Source: a virus. From it: a stretch of DNA of 26,525 nt. Of the stretch, positions 5,793-20,004 are shown piece after piece (within the stretch, counting starts at the first letter, position 1; the number at the start of each line of letters is the position of its first letter). The DNA is taken from IMG/VR virus record IMGVR_UViG_3300005581_000109, positions 1 to 26,525 of that record, one strand, 5' to 3'. Both the position numbers and the translations under genes were made by a program. The notes beneath the pieces were generated by a model. The model did not search any database and was not told the DNA's origin. It was given only the letters and a program-made list of their open reading frames with translations.

Positions 5793-5800
5793 TATTTATT
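5793..5800 (-). promoter_or_regulatory. Late-type promoter variant AATAAATA
   Basis: AATAAATA read leftward, 9 bases before the ATG of the long modular gene. The following bases GATAC match those after the TATAAATA at 6888-6895. It has one mismatch from the T4 late consensus. Confidence 0.5.
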
Positions 5801-6623
5801 AAATTTTCTCTACTGCATTGAGCCATTTGCGATATGACTTGCCATCGCTGGCCTCGACGATGATATAGTTTGGTCCACACTTTGAAATGGTTCCGCTGAG
5901 ATCCGTTCCGATGATATTGACTCGATCATTGACCGAGAATAGTTCTCCGTGAACATATGCCTCACGCGTCTCGGATATAGTCTCGAGCTGGATATGTTTG
6001 CGAAAGCTGTAGGACTCTTTAAGCCCCATTCCGGCACGCACTGCGTTGAACAGTTCACGCACCTCGCCGAATCCCTTTGGAACTCCTTTGGCAAAAGATT
6101 CTAAATCGTTCGCTTTTGCTGCATCGCGCATCTTAGTCGAACTCATTCCCTCGGCTCCATCGGAATCGGGATCGCGTTGATTGTTACTGACAACGTTGAT
6201 GCCATCCGAGAATTCGTAGGTACCATGAGAGGCATGAACTCCATTGTAGCGATTTAAGAGCGTCTCAAATTCCTTGACGCGATCGCTACCACAAACCAAT
6301 GTGAGCTTGGTGAATCCTTGTTTGTTCAACTTGACCGCCGCGTCCAACACAGTTTTGATGTGCTTATCCTCGATGATGTTGCGACCATACTTAGGAAAGA
6401 TCTTGCGCAAGAATTTGATCTTATCTTCGTAAGAAAGAGGGTTCTTCTTAGGATCATGTGTCTGCGAGGCAAAGATCGCATATTTTTTACCTTGAGCTTC
6501 CTTTACGACCTTCTGAAAGAGTGTCTCGTGACCGATATTCGGCGGCTGGAATCTACCAAAGGTAATCACGATCTCATTGATGCGTGATTCGGTAAATGTC
6601 TTAAATGATTTCAATTGTCCCAT
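5799..6623 (-). CDS. NMNAT/cytidylyltransferase-family nucleotidyltransferase with CTS-like N-terminus and C-terminal KOW-like domain
   Basis: 274 residues. The HIGH-superfamily nucleotide-binding motif is GRFQPPNIGH (residues 23-32) and the second motif is SSTKMR (161-166). Together they place it with NMN adenylyltransferases and cytidylyltransferases, which join NTPs to phosphate-bearing substrates. The start MGQLKSFKTFTESRINE precedes the fold and ends in I-N-E, like a T4 capsid-targeting peptide. A second copy-like stretch (SFRKHIQLETISE, about 206-218) separates the catalytic domain from a small beta domain (HGELFSVNDRVNIIG) that resembles those in the downstream 658-residue protein. The substrate cannot be read; NAD metabolism is possible. 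TATAAATT lies 5 bases before the ATG. Confidence 0.85.
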   Translation of the reverse strand: MGQLKSFKTFTESRINEIVITFGRFQPPNIGHETLFQKVVKEAQGKKYAIFASQTHDPKKNPLSYEDKIKFLRKIFPKYGRNIIEDKHIKTVLDAAVKLNKQGFTKLTLVCGSDRVKEFETLLNRYNGVHASHGTYEFSDGINVVSNNQRDPDSDGAEGMSSTKMRDAAKANDLESFAKGVPKGFGEVRELFNAVRAGMGLKESYSFRKHIQLETISETREAYVHGELFSVNDRVNIIGTDLSGTISKCGPNYIIVEASDGKSYRKWLNAVEKI

Positions 6624-10387: not shown

Positions 10388-11053
10388 TTAAGGTATATTT
10401 ATGAATACCTTAGCAAGTGCCTCGGCGCACAGTCTGGCAACCTCGATGTGCTCTTTCTGCGTACCGTTGCCGCTTCGAACATCGATGTAATGAATCCAAC
10501 TGCGAATGGTGCCGTTCATGTACATTCGACTCATCATGTTTCCTTCAGGCAACACCGAGCGAGCCACTTCTTTAGCGATGCCTTGCTTGATTGCCCATTG
10601 ATAGGTACTGATCGCTTGCTCGTTGTTTGCCAACTGAATCATTTTCCATTTAGCCTGCAAATCATCATCATCGGTATCCACCGAATTTTGACGATTCTTT
10701 TCATCTTGCAATCGAGCCTCACGCACCACCATCGGCAATGCCGCGACCGGATCGGCGTATCGCTGAGAGAACTCTTGAAAGGAGAACGAGCGATGCCGCA
10801 AGATCTGACGAGCAATGTCACGAGTCGTCTCGATCTCTAGCACGGCATTACACATCTCGAAAGGAGAGAAATGCTTGTGCTTCAGGAGATACGCGATCAA
10901 CTTATCGATGGTGTCTGTATTCAGCTGATTACTTGGATTTGATACTCGAGCGCAGAAGCCGATCAAATCCTTAATATCCTTCACCTCCGTTCCGGCAAAA
11001 TACTCTGCATCCGGAATGGTGTAGCCAACTAATTTTACTTTTGTATGTGTCAT
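10388..11053 (-). CDS. thyX: Flavin-dependent thymidylate synthase ThyX
   Basis: 221 residues. It makes dTMP from dUMP using methylene-tetrahydrofolate, FAD and NADPH. The ThyX signature RHRxxSxxxxSxRY is present as RHRSFSFQEFSQRY (R86-Y99). The C-terminal part has the conserved GNMMSRMYMNGTIRSWIHYI region that binds substrate and flavin. The ATG overlaps the end of the helicase gene (TAATG), so translation is coupled. T4 itself uses a ThyA-type synthase; ThyX occurs in many marine T4-like phages. Together with gp42 in the same window this means thymidine supply and hydroxymethyl-cytosine supply are separate, and no dUMP hydroxymethylase is visible here. Confidence 0.96.
   Translation of the reverse strand: MTHTKVKLVGYTIPDAEYFAGTEVKDIKDLIGFCARVSNPSNQLNTDTIDKLIAYLLKHKHFSPFEMCNAVLEIETTRDIARQILRHRSFSFQEFSQRYADPVAALPMVVREARLQDEKNRQNSVDTDDDDLQAKWKMIQLANNEQAISTYQWAIKQGIAKEVARSVLPEGNMMSRMYMNGTIRSWIHYIDVRSGNGTQKEHIEVARLCAEALAKVFINIP
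10396..10403 (-). promoter_or_regulatory. Possible late-type promoter variant CATAAATA
   Basis: CATAAATA read leftward, eight bases before the TTG at 10387. It lies in the last thyX codons and inside a 7-bp inverted repeat (AAGGTAT / ATACCTT), so it could be accidental. Confidence 0.3.
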
Positions 11054-13859: not shown

Positions 13860-14906
13860 TTATAAAAAGAATGAATCGAGAGAATTATTTTCGATGGTCG
13901 GCGCAGAGGTAGCATCGATTCCTGTCCAATGAGGATAGAATTCGCGAGAAAGGTGAACTGACTGAGGCTTCTCCATCTTGGCAAAGTCTAGCTCACCGAT
14001 TGAATTGGCCAAGTAATCCGTCCAGCGAATCAGTTTTGCCCGAGTCGCGATACGTTCTACTTCATTGGCAAATACTCGTCTGCATTCATTTCGTTGCTCC
14101 CAGGAGCCATAGAAAGGTTGTCCTTTATAGTAGCCAGTTTTCGGTAGCTTACGAGAAGGATTCTCGATCAAGAGCGGTTCATAGATCGAGACGTCATCGA
14201 TTGGCAATGCCTCGACCGCATCGACATATCGTTTGACCAGATCCTTGGTATTCTGGACATGATCCGAGGAGATTCTACAAAGGTGATGGCGAATGTCAAT
14301 GTTGCCAAAGTAGCATTCCAGAGCTTCGACTTCTTTGACAGGAATGCAATTCTCGATACCGTCATTGATCACACCATTTAGTGTCTTGAACGGAATCGAA
14401 TTGACCGTCCAACCCGGACGATACATACAGATCGAATGAGAATCGCCGATCACTACCTTATTAGTTTTATGAGGGAACTTTACGGTAGGCGCATGGATAT
14501 GCATTCGCTTTAGGTTCTCCATATCCACCTCGAGCCATTCGGGTTGAATCTCCTTATTGTTTTCCTTTGCCTTGAGGATGCGTTCGATGAGCATATCATG
14601 ATACGGAGGGAAATCACATGCTAAAGAGATGACTCGTCCTTTGAACTGAGAGAATGCCTTGACGTTGGCGACGTTAGAATATGCCTGCAGTCCTCCAAAA
14701 AGATTTAGAGAACCGAACCAATCGTTTCCGTGATAGACATAGAGGGTGTCGTATTGGTTATAGTCCTCGAGCTTACCGCCAAAGTTGATGTCAATATCTA
14801 CGCCGAGTTCACGAATCATATCTGCATAGATGACACCTTGAGAGGAGCGATGCGAGGTGGGTCGATCAGAGATCGAATTGAAAGGGCAACTGAGTAGTGC
14901 TTTCAT
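13860..14906 (-). CDS. SGNH/GDSL-like protein next to base-modification genes
   Basis: 348 residues. The C-terminal half carries VVIGDSHSICMYRPG (G154-D155-S156-H157), which resembles block I of SGNH hydrolases. It also carries YFGNIDIRHHLCR (G201-N202, D204, H207), which resembles the block III G-x-N/D pattern of SGNH proteins linked to glycan metabolism. The N-terminal half (YDTLYVYHGNDWFG, ISLACDFPPY) has no family I recognise. SGNH enzymes hydrolyse or transfer acyl groups; an acyl addition to a modified base would suit the location, but this is speculation. Its promoter ends six bases before the ATG, so the message would be leaderless. It may instead be a phage family of unknown fold. 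Confidence 0.72.
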   Translation of the reverse strand: MKALLSCPFNSISDRPTSHRSSQGVIYADMIRELGVDIDINFGGKLEDYNQYDTLYVYHGNDWFGSLNLFGGLQAYSNVANVKAFSQFKGRVISLACDFPPYHDMLIERILKAKENNKEIQPEWLEVDMENLKRMHIHAPTVKFPHKTNKVVIGDSHSICMYRPGWTVNSIPFKTLNGVINDGIENCIPVKEVEALECYFGNIDIRHHLCRISSDHVQNTKDLVKRYVDAVEALPIDDVSIYEPLLIENPSRKLPKTGYYKGQPFYGSWEQRNECRRVFANEVERIATRAKLIRWTDYLANSIGELDFAKMEKPQSVHLSREFYPHWTGIDATSAPTIENNSLDSFFL

Positions 14907-14912
14907 GTGAGT

Positions 14913-14941
14913 ATTCTATCTTAAATCGGGGTGAATGTAAA
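14913..14941 (-). promoter_or_regulatory. Early-type promoter for the SGNH-like gene
   Basis: Reading leftward: TTTACA (14941-14936), 17 bases, TAGAAT (14918-14913), then six bases (ACTCAC) to the ATG at 14906. With usual spacing the +1 falls at the start codon. Confidence 0.72.
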
Positions 14942-15931
14942 TTACTTTTTTAAAGAAAATTCTTTAGGGAATATCCAACTATATGGGATTCGTTTGGTCG
15001 GAGATTTGACTCCATGAGAGATGGCAATGTGCTTATAGAAAAAGCACGTTTTATCCTCGATGTTGAGCATCTTCTGAGAGGTCATTGGATTTCGAGAATC
15101 CTCACAAAGGATTTGCATCTGCTCTAACCAAAGGCGACACATATCATTTTCAGCAATGAATTGTCCATCTCCATCGATCGAGTATTTCGTCTTGCCATTC
15201 ACATTCTTTCCGCCGAATACTTGAAACAATCCGTCGAAATGTCCGGTGCCGCCATAGAGTACACTCTCAGGATCGACGAGATTCGGAAATGACATGGCAA
15301 GGTAACGTGCTGCATTTTTACAAGGATAGAGTGGGGAACGAAATCCTTGTTCTTCCTTGAAATGCTTCTCCATCAATTTAGCGAATTCCATCATGGTGTA
15401 TGGACGCTCGCGATTCTCGAGATGATGAGCCATGGCCTCGGCCGCTTTCAACGGTCCAGTTAATAACCAGTCCTTGACGTTCGTATTGAGCGGATAATAG
15501 ATCTGAAACAAATCGTTTCGAGCATGCCGATCATTGACAAACTTCTCACGAGTAGATTCAACACCATTCTCGATCAGATGCGTCAGAGTCCCCCAGTGTT
15601 CATTGGTGAATGAGAAGACGAGCGTATACCAAAGAATGTCCTTCAGGTCAGTCATGGTACGCATCAGGTCACAGAAGGGATGCTCGTGCCAATGCAGTCT
15701 ATGAGAGAAGATCTGATAATCCTCGGCCAGCAACTTGTCCTCACGCTTGTCGAATGCATGGCAGAACTCAAAGAACTTGTCGAGTCTCTGATCCAATGTC
15801 CAGCCGCGCATCCAACTATCTAAAGGCTTCTTGCCATCCTTGAGCGGGACAGTGAGGTCTGTACCTAGATATGTGATGTTGGTGTATTTCGTTCCGTCCT
15901 CAATGAAGTCTTCAAGTGTATTATTGTGCAT
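14942..15931 (-). CDS. Putative alpha-glutamyl/putrescinyl-thymine pyrophosphorylase-like protein (amino acid:DNA transferase family)
   Basis: 329 residues, mostly helical. Members of the aGPT-PPlase families replace the pyrophosphate on an activated 5-hydroxymethyl base in DNA with an amino acid or amine. Matches that I see are a Phe-Thr-Asn element (LVFSFTN, 104-110) and a Gly-rich element GGTGHFDGLFQVFG (227-240), which resembles the family's GPGA-x-RGL loop. A C-terminal signature N290-I-E-D-x-x-C-x-F-Y-K300 resembles the family's D-V-E-x-x-x-C-E-x-x-K. It overlaps the end of the PLP-enzyme gene by 11 bases, so the two are made together. This is distant recognition by motif only; structure prediction is needed to confirm the family. 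Confidence 0.6.
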   Translation of the reverse strand: MHNNTLEDFIEDGTKYTNITYLGTDLTVPLKDGKKPLDSWMRGWTLDQRLDKFFEFCHAFDKREDKLLAEDYQIFSHRLHWHEHPFCDLMRTMTDLKDILWYTLVFSFTNEHWGTLTHLIENGVESTREKFVNDRHARNDLFQIYYPLNTNVKDWLLTGPLKAAEAMAHHLENRERPYTMMEFAKLMEKHFKEEQGFRSPLYPCKNAARYLAMSFPNLVDPESVLYGGTGHFDGLFQVFGGKNVNGKTKYSIDGDGQFIAENDMCRLWLEQMQILCEDSRNPMTSQKMLNIEDKTCFFYKHIAISHGVKSPTKRIPYSWIFPKEFSLKK

Positions 15932-16805
15932 CGTTCTTTTTCCAGTCTCGATATGAATCGGTATTGTCTATGATTGATTTATCATGAAGGATCGGATCGG
16001 TCCCCACGTTCCACATCAAGACGCGCCGACCGCTATTCTTTGGAATCCATTTCCAGACTTTTGCATCGTAAGAGTCGACAGTAGGAAATGGAGGCAGATT
16101 TTCTGGCTTCTCACTCTGAGGGAAATCAAGCGGTTCGCTGATAACATCGGCTCGTCCGAGTTCACCGGCTTTTAGGTTTCGGGCCACGGCAACGCATGTA
16201 AACTTGGCATTCGGCCAGGCAATCTGAAGCGCCCGGGATAATACTCCGGTCGAGATGGCCACGTAGACCTCATCCGGTTCAGGAATAGTCGAGGCAGCAT
16301 GCACGATGGCTGCAGTAGCCAATTCGTGTTTCAGACCAAGAGGAATGAAGTATGCTCCATTGTCGGCTGCCCACTTCTTGGCGTATAGGTTTAGATTGGG
16401 CATGGCCGCGATTCGCTCAAAGATCACCTTGGCTCCTCGCTCGATGCAGCACGCCTGATGAACCGAGATGCGCTTGGAGCTTGGCATGAAGAGTACGATC
16501 TTCTTTTCAGGATGGCGCTGAGCGACATCACACAGAGATACACCGGCCAGACCCACACGTGGTTGGCAATATACCAACGTATCTGCCTTGACTTTCGACA
16601 TCAGCAAATCGCCGGCTCGAGTCTTGGTTCCGACAGTCAGATCATCTCGAACCACCAAAACACCCTCGTGCTCCACTACCACAGGATTTGGGTTATATGG
16701 CACCCAACCTTCGCAGAGTGAAAGGTAGTATTCCTTTGCATCCTCTGGGCTCATGAGTCCAATATCTTTATTGAATCCGTCAATGACGTGTGTATCGTGC
16801 GACAT
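15921..16805 (-). CDS. Fold-type II PLP-dependent enzyme (ACC-deaminase/tryptophan-synthase-beta-like)
   Basis: 294 residues. The N-terminal VVRDDLTVGTKTRAGDLL resembles the K-R-E-D-L...GG-x-K-x-R motif of ACC deaminase/cysteine desulfhydrase enzymes; K61 would hold PLP. ISTGVLSRALQIAW (about 184-197) stands where the phosphate-binding Gly-rich loop is expected. The protein is shorter than most family members (around 330). PLP enzymes of phage DNA-modification loci decarboxylate or rearrange an amino acid already attached to the base; this role is inferred from its overlap with the transferase-like gene. A promoter ends six bases before the ATG. The left border of the homing-endonuclease insertion is just upstream. 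Confidence 0.78.
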   Translation of the reverse strand: MSHDTHVIDGFNKDIGLMSPEDAKEYYLSLCEGWVPYNPNPVVVEHEGVLVVRDDLTVGTKTRAGDLLMSKVKADTLVYCQPRVGLAGVSLCDVAQRHPEKKIVLFMPSSKRISVHQACCIERGAKVIFERIAAMPNLNLYAKKWAADNGAYFIPLGLKHELATAAIVHAASTIPEPDEVYVAISTGVLSRALQIAWPNAKFTCVAVARNLKAGELGRADVISEPLDFPQSEKPENLPPFPTVDSYDAKVWKWIPKNSGRRVLMWNVGTDPILHDKSIIDNTDSYRDWKKNDAQ

Positions 16806-16811
16806 GCTAGT

Positions 16812-16840
16812 ATTCTACACTAAATATCTACGCTTGTAAA
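16812..16840 (-). promoter_or_regulatory. Early-type promoter for the PLP-enzyme unit
   Basis: Reading leftward: TTTACA (16840-16835), 17 bases, TAGAAT (16817-16812), then six bases (ACTAGC) to the ATG at 16805. It predicts a leaderless transcript. Confidence 0.74.
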
Positions 16841-16870
16841 TACTTTTTTACAATTTCATGATCTTTCTGG

Positions 16871-16878
16871 TATAAATA
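16871..16878 (+). promoter_or_regulatory. T4-type late promoter for the homing endonuclease gene
   Basis: A perfect TATAAATA on the plus strand in the 136-base gap between divergent genes. It is 64 bases before the ATG at 16942 and 16 bases before a TTG at 16894 in the same frame. Confidence 0.65.
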
Positions 16879-16941
16879 GTACTGTTCGCGGAATTGCCGT
16901 TCCCAACAGCTCTACAATCAAACATTAACCCCAATCGCAGC

Positions 16942-17667
16942 ATGAAATTATTTATAGTCTACCTTATCACGTATCAAGGTAATAAGCTTCCTCCATTCTA
17001 TATTGGCTCTACTTCTTTAGAGAAATTCAATAAAGGATATTCTGGATCAGTATCGTCCAAAGAATACAAAACTCTTTGGAAAACCGAATTGAGAAGTAAC
17101 CCGCACCTATTTAAGAGAAGAATAGTTAGTTCATACTTTACTCCCGAGGAAGCAATATCTGCAGAATCTAGGTTTCATTACGTTCTTCGAGTGAATAGAA
17201 ATCCGCTTTATGCAAATAAGTGCATAGCCGGAAATTCCCCTAGATCAATGGGATTCGTTGGTCATGGAGAGAATAACCCGATGTTTGGTCACGTCTATAG
17301 CGATGAAACCCGAGAAAAGATGCGAAACGCAAAACTTGGAAGTAAAGCTAAAGAAAGTACTAAAGAAATTTGGAGGAAAAATCGTAAAGGTCACTGGACC
17401 GGAGACAAAAATCCGACTAAAACAAATCTAACAATGTTAGGTAAAAAGCATTCTGAGGAATCTAAGAAGAAAATGTCAGAATTAGCAAAGGGCAAATATG
17501 CTGGAGATAAAAACCCAATGTATGGAAAGTCAGCAATGAAAGGAAGAAAACATTCTCCAGAAACAAAGGCGAGAATGGCAGAGGCTAGGAAAAAGTACTG
17601 GGAGAATAAGTCCAATCTGCATATTCAGGAAGTTGTTTCACCTTCCTTATGTACTGAATCTCAGTAA
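16942..17667 (+). CDS. GIY-YIG homing endonuclease with several NUMOD3 motifs
   Basis: 241 residues from the ATG at 16942; a TTG at 16894 would add 16 residues and is nearer the late promoter. The nuclease core is LFIVYLITYQ ... FYIGSTS, followed by the Arg/Glu-bearing helix (EEAISAESRFHYVL). Three or four NUMOD3-like DNA-binding repeats follow (ENNPMFGHVYSDETREKMR, LGKKHSEESKKKM, KNPMYGKSAMKGRKHS). It lies on the plus strand inside a block of minus-strand modification genes. Its last 83 bases overlap the 3' end of the converging transferase-like gene, so its C-terminus reads through the opposite strand of that gene. It is probably a mobile gene not directly involved in base modification. Confidence 0.9.
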   Translation: MKLFIVYLITYQGNKLPPFYIGSTSLEKFNKGYSGSVSSKEYKTLWKTELRSNPHLFKRRIVSSYFTPEEAISAESRFHYVLRVNRNPLYANKCIAGNSPRSMGFVGHGENNPMFGHVYSDETREKMRNAKLGSKAKESTKEIWRKNRKGHWTGDKNPTKTNLTMLGKKHSEESKKKMSELAKGKYAGDKNPMYGKSAMKGRKHSPETKARMAEARKKYWENKSNLHIQEVVSPSLCTESQ

Positions 17668-18784
17668 GACCAGCATTTTTGATAACTTGATCTTTGGTGT
17701 AAACCCCATCAAAGTCATTGAAACTTTTAACTAGACCCAAATCTAGCATGGCTTTTTGTCTTCCATATGGGTGAATAATCTTACTTGAATTCCATATTTT
17801 ATCTGCATCCAAGTGATTATACGAATCGCCTGATTTGAAATAATTGGTGAGATACCTTATGAAGTCACAACAGACATCCTCGACGTTATATGGGAATCCA
17901 CCTGTGTCGGCAAAAAGATTCATCATGATCTCGTCGACTAACTGCTCGGATTTCATCTTCGTCTTGGCCGTTGCCAGATATGAGATGCTTTGAATCGCGT
18001 TGCTACCGTAATAGAATAGCGATTCCTTATTCACGAACTGAGGAAACCAATCGGCGACATCTGCCACGATCGCGGCATACTGGAAATGGTACTGACGAAG
18101 ATTGTTCTTAACGTTCCAGTTCAGCATGAATGAGCCAATCTCGCGAAGATCTTTCTTTCCTCCTTTGACTAAGAAATCTGCCAACTCTCTGGCTAAGCGA
18201 GGAGCAAATTCACAAAGGTAATAGTCTCCACCTTTCTTGTAGCCTTCGACTGGTTTAGGAAATGCCGGAAACTGATAGCCCACTGAGGTGTAGAATGAAT
18301 TCTGCTCGTGACGAACGATGTCACACATCTTCTCGATGGTGTCGGCCCGATAGAGCTTAAAGAGAAGCGTATTGTGATAGCCACTCGGCTTCAAGGCATA
18401 GTTAATACCAGAACCGCATACCCGATGAAGGATGAAGACGTAGAGCCATTCGGCCAAACCAAAGACATCTTGCTTTCCGCTCCAGTTATTGGCAACCTCG
18501 ACTCGCTGATCGAAGACTTGCCCGGCCTTCATCTTCTCCCAATAAGGGTGACTCTCACTCCAGCCATGAAAGCAATCATGAACGATCTGAGAGAAACCCG
18601 CATAGGCACGTTCTACTACGTCATACAACTCGACCTTCTCCATCAGGTCATCACCAATATTCGAATCGGCATGGCTAATCATGCCATAAGGAGCATGATC
18701 GCTAACGTTGCATTTCTCTTGCTGCTCTTTTGCCAAGGCATAGTAGCGTAAGAATTCGTCGTAGTATTCCGTCTTTTCGATCAT
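17585..18784 (-). CDS. Second putative amino acid:DNA transferase (aGPT-PPlase-like) protein
   Basis: 399 residues from the ATG at 18784, one base after the stop of the upstream gene; the open frame to 18943 overlaps that gene. Mostly helical. N300-V-E-D-x-x-C-x-F-I-R310 is almost the same signature as in the protein at 14942-15931 (N-I-E-D-x-x-C-x-F-Y-K), and FYYGSNAIQSI (257-267) may be the matching Gly loop. FILHRVCGSGINYALKPSGY (117-136) looks like a conserved substrate pocket. A paralogous pair would allow two modifications or a hetero-complex. The C-terminal 28 residues overlap the homing gene. Recognition is weaker than for its paralog; it could be another helical enzyme. Confidence 0.5.
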   Translation of the reverse strand: MIEKTEYYDEFLRYYALAKEQQEKCNVSDHAPYGMISHADSNIGDDLMEKVELYDVVERAYAGFSQIVHDCFHGWSESHPYWEKMKAGQVFDQRVEVANNWSGKQDVFGLAEWLYVFILHRVCGSGINYALKPSGYHNTLLFKLYRADTIEKMCDIVRHEQNSFYTSVGYQFPAFPKPVEGYKKGGDYYLCEFAPRLARELADFLVKGGKKDLREIGSFMLNWNVKNNLRQYHFQYAAIVADVADWFPQFVNKESLFYYGSNAIQSISYLATAKTKMKSEQLVDEIMMNLFADTGGFPYNVEDVCCDFIRYLTNYFKSGDSYNHLDADKIWNSSKIIHPYGRQKAMLDLGLVKSFNDFDGVYTKDQVIKNAGLTEIQYIRKVKQLPEYADWTYSPSTFS

Positions 18785-18785
18785 A

Positions 18786-19229
18786 TTATTCAGTGATATA
18801 GACCGCAGTCTCACGACCGCCACACTTGAAGTTAATAACTGCATCTTCGCCGGTCCAGCGAATTGCCGAGATTTGCTTCGAAGCTTCAGCGCTTGTTGGA
18901 CGATTGAGAAAGTCACGACCTTCGACTTGGCCATCCATACCACCTCGGCAATACGAGACGATGAATGAGCAATAGTTGATCATGTCCTTGGCGCTATCCT
19001 CGACGCTTTCGAAGTTCGGGACATAAGAAGGATCATGTTCCATTGCAGCGATCACACTGCGAAGGCGAAGCATCTTGGCATGGACGATATCCAGCAAGGT
19101 CGAAACCCCGCGAGGATAATAGTCGGCTTGCTTAATGATGCTATGCGAGTTCTGATAATCGTTACCCTTCTTACGTTGAAGGTTGGCGCATTCGTCTAGT
19201 ACCTTGATTGATTCCTTATCGTTTTCCAT
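18786..19229 (-). CDS. DUF1599 / nucleotide modification associated domain 1 (Nmad1)-like protein
   Basis: 147 residues. The pattern ECANLQRKKGNDYQNS, then STLLDIVHAKMLRLRSVI and SVEDSAKDMINYCSFIV, matches the K-x-x-D-Y-G-x-S ... D-I-x-x-K-x-x-R-I-x-x-L ... DIINY layout of DUF1599. This domain was renamed Nmad1 because it recurs in phage base-modification loci; it is thought to be related to MazG-type all-alpha NTP pyrophosphatases. The residues fit nucleotide handling but no substrate is known. A C-terminal extension of about 45 residues (TSAEASKQISAIRWTGEDAV) looks beta-rich. It heads a two-gene unit with the second transferase-like gene and has its own promoter nine bases before the ATG. 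Confidence 0.72.
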   Translation of the reverse strand: MENDKESIKVLDECANLQRKKGNDYQNSHSIIKQADYYPRGVSTLLDIVHAKMLRLRSVIAAMEHDPSYVPNFESVEDSAKDMINYCSFIVSYCRGGMDGQVEGRDFLNRPTSAEASKQISAIRWTGEDAVINFKCGGRETAVYITE

Positions 19230-19238
19230 GTTGGGAGT

Positions 19239-19267
19239 ATTTTATATTGTTTTGAGTAATTTGTACA
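19239..19267 (-). promoter_or_regulatory. Early-type promoter for the Nmad1-like unit
   Basis: Reading leftward: TGTACA (19267-19262), 17 bases, TAAAAT (19244-19239), nine bases to the ATG at 19229. The -10 is weaker than in the sister promoters, and the spacer lacks the CCC-GATATGG element. Confidence 0.6.
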
Positions 19268-19272
19268 CATCT

Positions 19273-20004
19273 TTATGCATCGCCTAATGCTTTTTGTGCC
19301 ATGCGCTGGGTCTCAAGATGCTCGTCTTGTTTGTCGATGAATTTTTGAATCAGATGAAAGTGGCAAGAATAGACATGAAGGCTACCTACTTGCCAAGTGA
19401 TATCACCTGCGATCAGATCTCGACCAAGCTTTTGATTGTAATCGGCGACCAGCTTATCTAGCACAAATTTCTGCCAGGCATAGTCATTGCGATATCCGAA
19501 GATGACATCATTCGAACGCATCTGCACGACGCAATGAATCTTGCCATCGCGAATCAGGTATTGAACCGCATTGGTGCAGATGAAGTCGCTCATACCACCT
19601 TTGCACCAATCAGTGTGCATAGTAGGACGAGTGTAGATAGTGACTGCTCGACGAGAATTTGGGCTGACCACTAACTCGTTGAGGACAGAGAGATATTGCC
19701 CATGATTCTGCTTGCCAAAGACCAGATAGCCATAGTTTGAATTGATCACTCCATCCGGAGTAGCCACAGATTTCCAGATCTGAGGAACCTTGCCAGGAAT
19801 ATCATTGACATTCAAAGATTCCGACAGGTACCAATCCAATTCGTGCTGGATATACTCATGATTGAGTTCACCGAAGATTGCCGGAGCATCAGCCAAAAAG
19901 CTGGCACCTACCAGCTCGATGGTGCTGGTACCGGTTTTATCCTCGATAAGATTGCCCGAGCGAAGTTCGGAGATGAAGTGTTGCTGAATATCTTTTGTTG
20001 TCAT
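19273..20004 (-). CDS. 42: dCMP hydroxymethylase (T4 gp42-like)
   Basis: 243 residues of the thymidylate-synthase superfamily. It makes 5-hydroxymethyl-dCMP from dCMP and methylene-tetrahydrofolate. It follows T4 gp42 closely by recall: DKTGTSTIELVGASF, INSNYGY, SRRAVTIYTRP, FICTNAVQYLIRDGKI, MRSNDVIFGYRNDYAWQKF and VGSLHVYS. C143 is the nucleophile. D174 takes the place of Asn177 of ThyA and equals T4 Asp179, which selects dCMP over dUMP; the Cys-to-Asp spacing (31) is the same as in T4. Its ATG follows the previous gene's stop by two bases. It indicates that cytosine in this phage DNA is largely 5-hydroxymethylcytosine or a derivative, shielding it from host nucleases. Confidence 0.94.
   Translation of the reverse strand: MTTKDIQQHFISELRSGNLIEDKTGTSTIELVGASFLADAPAIFGELNHEYIQHELDWYLSESLNVNDIPGKVPQIWKSVATPDGVINSNYGYLVFGKQNHGQYLSVLNELVVSPNSRRAVTIYTRPTMHTDWCKGGMSDFICTNAVQYLIRDGKIHCVVQMRSNDVIFGYRNDYAWQKFVLDKLVADYNQKLGRDLIAGDITWQVGSLHVYSCHFHLIQKFIDKQDEHLETQRMAQKALGDA

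Follow-up and report, generated by a model that had tools for sequence, protein, structure and literature searches.

Amino-acid hypermodification of DNA has been characterised on thymine, where it proceeds through 5-hydroxymethyl-deoxyuridine (5-hmdU) and a base kinase; which base is modified, and by what route, in a virus that carries the same protein superfamilies beside a hydroxymethylcytosine (hmC) synthase? The question is raised by IMG/VR record IMGVR_UViG_3300005581_000109, a 26,525-nt fragment of a virus genome (hereafter the window), in which positions 13860-20004 hold a minus-strand block of six genes and one passenger gene. The original prediction, made from the sequence of the window, had named here a deoxycytidylate (dCMP) hydroxymethylase, two aGPT-PPlase-like proteins (P2 and P4 below), a fold-type II pyridoxal-phosphate (PLP) enzyme and a DUF1599/Nmad1-like protein. 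All of these are present in the block, while a gene whose product resembles T4 beta-glucosyltransferase (BGT; the glycosyltransferase-like or GT-like protein) and a plus-strand GIY-YIG gene had been overlooked. We read the block, with a probability of about 0.62, as a DNA-cytosine hypermodification locus, in which the quartet of P4, P2, PLP enzyme and GT-like protein extends the hydroxymethyl oxygen of hmC with a larger group and no hmC kinase is encoded. The quartet would probably add an amino-acid-derived group, perhaps also a sugar, to cytosines of the viral DNA without a known DNA-base kinase.

The first evidence on the base comes from the hydroxymethylase, which has a thymidylate synthase (TS) fold with a Cys nucleophile (C143) and, as predicted, the dCMP-selecting Asp (D174). 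In profile comparison it reaches 355 bits with T4 gp42 and no more than 70 bits with thymidylate synthases. The active-site residues E60, S94, Y96, D145, C148 and D179 of T4 gp42, whose roles are given in PMC6400193, correspond to E55, S89, Y91, D140, C143 and D174 in the window and are invariant in 18 aligned sequences; the hydroxymethylase of Pseudomonas phage M6 has Asn at the site of the dCMP-selecting Asp. As the product of Mosigvirus gp42 homologues is reported to be 5-hydroxy-dCMP (PMC13390438), the window enzyme could also be a 5-hydroxy-dCMP synthase in the RB69/Mosigvirus manner, with a sugar joined directly to the ring oxygen. We consider this very improbable, since the window enzyme shares 55.6% of its residues with T4 gp42 and about 25% with the gp42 of the Mosigvirus (RB69-type) OLB35, and by sequence falls clearly in the T4 clade, apart from OLB35; the T4-type activity, which yields 5-hydroxymethyl-dCMP, is therefore more likely. 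In addition, displacement by an aminoalkyl group would require the hydroxymethyl carbon. A T4-type hydroxymethylase was found in 18 of 25 large records with P4, usually as the sole enzyme of that kind, and it adjoins the quartet cluster in many loci. A dCMP deaminase is encoded in 17 loci (family f19; L082:9547-10005), in many of them between hydroxymethylase and P4. In one 212-kb record (G011; L117:1486-2341) the hydroxymethylase spans two frames that overlap, possibly because of a frameshift or an error in assembly.

The classic thymine pathway, in which 5-hmdU is acted on by a kinase, an amino acid transferase and a PLP enzyme, could nevertheless operate here if a dUMP hydroxymethylase and the kinase were encoded elsewhere in the genome; the window is a 26.5-kb fragment, and the superfamily and PLP resemblance to M6 would fit such a pathway. 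The original prediction expected a base kinase outside the window, but none was found in any of the related records that were searched, which reach 260 kb in length (these records may be fragments). The HMUDK P-loop kinase (PF18748) was not found in 26 and 17 P4-type records, while the kinase of an M6-like record, the positive control, was found. Searches of related records with PF18748, PF18751 and a local kinase hidden Markov model gave no convincing shared kinase candidate, and the P-loop families common to four large records were core only, resembling gp46, gp44 and PhoH. Among related records, the sole recurring TS-family enzyme was the Asp-type T4 gp42, the other TS genes looking canonical (for example L106, with FNIASY), and the window has an independent source of thymidylate (dTMP) in ThyX, as had been predicted. 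We therefore regard the thymine pathway as very improbable. Based on the T4-type hydroxymethylase in most large records, the kinase PF18748 not being found and the dCMP deaminase nearby, the modified base is very probably cytosine, in agreement with the original prediction.

For the two aGPT-PPlase-like proteins, sequence models and predicted folds were compared with known families. Pfam scans of P2, P4 and 42 aligned members (19 + 23) gave no relevant match, ADDT and HMUDK_hel included, and ADDT had no match in 26 related records. Both proteins gave confident, all-helical AlphaFold2 (AF2) models. Searched against BFVD, the P2 model matched aGPT-PPlase clade 1 (probability 1.00), and the P4 model matched the HMUDK_hel protein of PhiW-14 (probability 0.98) and aGPT-PPlase clade 1 (probability 0.97-0.99); each search also returned close relatives of the other protein. 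These matches are moderate (probability 0.97-1.0, TM-score 0.38-0.50, E 0.007-0.24), and we propose with moderate confidence that a helical DNA-glycosylase-like fold is common to P2, P4 and the known superfamily members. A fold search of P2 against PDB returned nothing significant, the sole plausible weak match being the AGOG glycosylase (E 1.4). The closest BFVD relatives carry the UniProt label 'Amino acid:DNA transferase domain', which Pfam scans did not reproduce and which we do not count as proof. At the profile level, P2 is collinear with HMUDK_hel via 'GGTGHFDGLHQI ... LNIEDKSCLFYKH...G...P.+..Y.W' (E 0.007, with E 0.26 and 0.35 for unrelated control pairs), the alignment setting 'GGTGHFDGLHQIFGG...LNIEDKSCLFYKHIAINHNVKSPTKRIPYNW' against 'PGPGAKRGLNRIHGR...RDIEHCLCEFDKYERVRLGQGKPRAKYKP'. 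The C-terminal signature GxG...[DN]I(E/Q)..xC..xK...G, by which the two proteins had originally been recognised, is clear in P2 (E 0.007) and is seen in P4 by inspection and through P2 (P4-P2 E 0.0024). Their aGPT-PPlase-like character is borne out by the clade 1 and HMUDK_hel fold matches and by the P2-HMUDK_hel alignment. P2 and P4 appear to represent two new divergent families of the aGPT-PPlase/HMUDK_hel/ADDT superfamily, P2 being better supported than P4. The start of P4, previously placed at 18943, is moved to 18784, where its relatives begin, and its final residues in the window, at the end of the open reading frame overlapped by the GIY-YIG gene, are unlike those of relatives. In 18 loci (family f18; L041:708-1112), a 134-aa protein that weakly matches the uracil-DNA-glycosylase superfamily (0.0024) is encoded directly upstream of P4, and is a possible base-handling partner.

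The PLP enzyme links the locus to amino-acid chemistry. Its gene overlaps that of P2 by 11 bp, in line with the predicted overlap between a fold-type II PLP enzyme and one of the aGPT-PPlase-like proteins; Lys61, the catalytic lysine by homology, is invariant among aligned members, and Pfam PALP is matched by 11 of 20. The enzyme belongs to phrog_7093 and shows full-length homology to M6 gp52 (hhalign probability 95.5, E 1.4e-8, 216 columns), with which it has the C-terminal motif 'PFP...YD.K.WKW...(M/F)WN(V/I)G' in common. In the M6-type pathway, a PLP enzyme removes the carboxyl group of an amino acid that is linked to the base, and we take M6 gp52 to be that decarboxylase. By analogy, the enzyme of the window probably acts in the same way. 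Its full-length homology to M6 gp52 makes an amino-acid-derived decoration plausible, and to expect such a product from the PLP family is sound reasoning by analogy. Many marine clusters encode, between P2 and the PLP enzyme, a LOG-family nucleotide phosphoribohydrolase-like protein (Lysine_decarbox 3e-31; L017:11062-11733, family f17, 20 loci). Homologues of the PLP enzyme also occur in a different context in Microcystis and Erythrobacter phages (L101:10342-12660, L100), beside or within genes annotated as ParB/sulfiredoxin or 'DNA modification methylase'.

That the four proteins of the quartet belong together is indicated by their distribution. We found 104 IMG/VR loci that hold P4, P2, the PLP enzyme and the GT-like protein, always on one strand and within 3.2-5.9 kb, in four gene orders (39, 29, 23 and 13 loci) and in different surroundings; many loci are short contigs, some overlapping, and their counts are not independent events. 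Proximity that is kept through rearrangement would be hard to explain without a shared function. The same four are the commonest gene families in the first ~100 loci (P4 in 99, P2 in 91, GT-like in 87, PLP in 83). More than 560 relatives of P4 occur in IMG/VR, and neither P2 nor P4 had a match at E 0.01 in 50,697 cultured-phage records (tblastn). The carriers are widespread, very common uncultured T4-like phages of freshwater and marine origin; a scan of bacterial genomes yielded just seven contigs of metagenome-assembled genomes, of mixed taxa, and we therefore assign no host. Between the loci L041 and L018, the PLP enzyme and the GT-like protein are 42% and 34% identical, and P4 and P2 79% and 73%. 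This co-variation between lineages suggests that the PLP enzyme and the GT-like protein set the chemistry, while P4 and P2 would read the DNA.

The first ~105 residues of the GT-like protein align with T4 BGT (hhalign probability 95-96, E 3e-8 to 4e-9), and its nearly invariant D98 is aligned with D100, the catalytic residue of BGT. Its C-domain did not align to the UDP-glucose-binding C-domain of BGT (hhalign); it contains the motifs GDSH...GNIDxRHH...VHLS, Lipase_GDSL is weakly matched by 3 of 25 members (best 0.013), and the profile of the protein had no match among PDB sequences. Cultured relatives are found in Aeromonas, Stenotrophomonas and Tenacibaculum phages. In Aeromonas phage 44RR, ORF233c joins the GT-like domain to a C-terminal half that weakly matches HMUDK_hel (0.0036) and contains an 'AGPGA' motif, a fusion that hints at cooperation between GT-like and helical proteins; just upstream of ORF233c lies a sodium:solute symporter gene (L102:6408-10388). 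In the best reading, the GT-like protein is the constant partner that stands where thymine pathways have the kinase. An alternative end product is glycosylated hmC: the GT-like protein would transfer a sugar, P4 would be its DNA-binding, base-flipping subunit, and the PLP enzyme and P2 would act on the donor, altering or providing it (as an amino sugar, for example), and would not join an amino acid to the base. Such a role would suit the occurrence of P4 and the GT-like protein as a minimal set without nearby PLP or P2, the possible HMUDK_hel-like part of the 44RR fusion, the co-variation of GT-like and PLP proteins, and the pairing, in other phages, of genes for an aGPT-PPlase1 and a glucosyltransferase (PMC9599517; LuckyBarnes). 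We consider it unlikely, though the least unlikely of the alternatives, because the PLP enzyme groups with gp52 of M6, a phage whose pathway starts its elaboration from an amino acid linked to the base, and because the C-domain of the GT-like protein shows no recognisable donor domain of the BGT type.

Under our preferred reading, in which the quartet hypermodifies hmC, gp42 would make 5-hydroxymethyl-dCMP that is incorporated as hmC, a first step that is well supported by the near-identical active site. The order of the steps after it, the amino-acid chemistry and the involvement of a sugar we infer. P4, a helical protein resembling helix-hairpin-helix (HhH) proteins, and the GT-like enzyme would carry out the core step, in which they handle the base and are the first to act on its hydroxymethyl group in the DNA; P2 and the PLP enzyme would install and trim the amino-acid-derived moiety. 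As an hmC kinase was not found, activation may come from a group supplied by the GT-like enzyme, or attachment may follow a route without pyrophosphate. Several observations weigh against this scheme. P2 is missing from at least 11 newly fetched loci and a nearby PLP gene from a few, so that the amino-acid part is not universal and P4 and the GT-like protein look like the core. The placement of P4 rests on its predicted fold, because its direct profile matches are not significant (hhalign E 0.14 to HMUDK_hel and 0.41 to ADDT). Glycosyl transfer by the GT-like protein is putative, its C-domain being unlike the BGT donor domain. Among the large records, three of marine origin (183, 165 and 150 kb; possibly incomplete) had no detectable hydroxymethylase. 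The pathway as a whole is read here from genes and predicted folds.

Features of the block and the thymidylate synthase gene of the window
Feature	Coordinates	Strand	Evidence
ThyX	10388..11053	-	Thy1 1.2e-38; independent dTMP source
GT-like protein	13860..14906	-	hhalign to BGT family, N-domain only
P2, 329 aa	14942..15931	-	AF2 pLDDT 87; aGPT-PPlase clade 1 fold; HMUDK_hel C-terminal match
Fold-type II PLP enzyme, M6 gp52 family	15921..16805	-	phrog_7093 9.4e-39; hhalign to M6 gp52
GIY-YIG/NUMOD3 homing endonuclease	16894..17667	+	NUMOD3 1.1e-16; between PLP gene and P4
P4, 399 aa	17585..18784	-	AF2 pLDDT 83; BFVD fold matches; start by alignment
DUF1599/Nmad1 protein	18786..19229	-	DUF1599 in 8/10 aligned members, best 6.1e-7
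gp42-type dCMP hydroxymethylase	19273..20004	-	Pfam Thymidylat_synt 7.9e-19; 355 bits to T4 gp42

The block is that of a T4-like phage, the window also containing T4-like replication genes (UvsX/RecA-like, DnaB-type helicase and NrdB). The homing endonuclease gene overlaps the 3' end of P4 by 83 bp, and no homing endonuclease lies between the P4 and PLP genes of relatives; it is a mobile passenger. A second NUMOD3 homing endonuclease is encoded at 871-1686, and a cytidylyltransferase-like (NMNAT-type) protein at 5799-6623 (7.7e-7). The Nmad1-like protein of the window by itself matches DUF1599 below the cut-off (0.0029), and its predicted assignment is upheld by the other members of its alignment; it is possibly a nucleotide-pool enzyme. 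In the marine lineage, for which DUF1599 was mostly not detected, a DUF6378 protein (L020:7183-7485, family f4, 49 loci) is encoded immediately upstream of the GT-like gene.

Among known systems, the thymidine hypermodification cluster of phage M6 comprises gp51 (ADDT), gp52 (PALP), gp53 (radical SAM) and gp54/55 (5-hmdU kinase and helical partner). Each of the two loci combines, within one region, a hydroxymethyl-pyrimidine synthase, proteins of the aGPT-PPlase/HMUDK_hel/ADDT superfamily and a PLP enzyme of the same family. However, the hydroxymethylase is here of the dCMP type and in M6 of the uracil type, a P-loop kinase was not found, the cluster has no radical SAM gene, the quartet includes a BGT-like protein, and P2 and P4 are too divergent for Pfam models. 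The T4 gp42/BGT system, the known case of hmC glucosylation, has in common with the block the gp42 clade and the BGT-type N-domain with its catalytic Asp, but differs in the C-domain of the transferase, and up to three extra proteins stand beside the GT-like protein. The T4-like Aeromonas phages 44RR2.8t, 31 and 25 likewise combine a GT-like homologue (ORF233c in 44RR2.8t and ORF225c in 25; family phrog_17781 and phrog_13881) with gp42 and no known glucosyltransferase, but have no match to P4, P2 or the PLP enzyme, and the 44RR protein is a fusion. An amino acid is also linked to phage DNA cytosine by the CmoX/CmoY carboxymethylcytosine-glycine pathway (PMC12783734), which in contrast uses unrelated enzymes, with a carboxymethyl group derived from S-adenosylmethionine (SAM) and an ATP amide ligase. 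Uncultured phages with a 5hmC carbamoyltransferase (MetaGPA, PMC8670742) have a dCMP hydroxymethylase and dCMP deaminase and elaborate hmC further, although by carbamoyl transfer with an unrelated enzyme. The cultured actinophage Microbacterium phage WilliamStrong (L282, 1737-5324) encodes a gp42-like enzyme with the dCMP-type Asp, a TAGT glycosyltransferase and an HMUDK_hel protein (1e-31), and may be another hydroxymethylcytosine use of the HMUDK_hel superfamily.

The papers that were searched contain no description of the P4/P2/PLP/GT-like quartet. Our most specific proposal is a new DNA hypermodification class in abundant aquatic T4-like phages, namely hydroxymethylcytosine with an amino-acid-derived (aminoalkyl) group and possibly a sugar as well, formed with no base kinase and with activation by a BGT-like enzyme and an aGPT-PPlase-fold partner; we put it forward tentatively, at slightly less than even odds. 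Petrov et al. 2010 (PMC2993671) reported gene 42 and no glucosyltransferase genes in Aeromonas phages 44RR, 31 and 25, and if our proposal is true, the GT-like gene would be the candidate hmC-modifying enzyme of these gp42-positive, glucosyltransferase-negative phages, a question raised by that work. The quartet would then also provide new enzymes for hmC labelling and add a chemically new kind of modified cytosine, and we see a real chance that these phages carry a new class of modified base.

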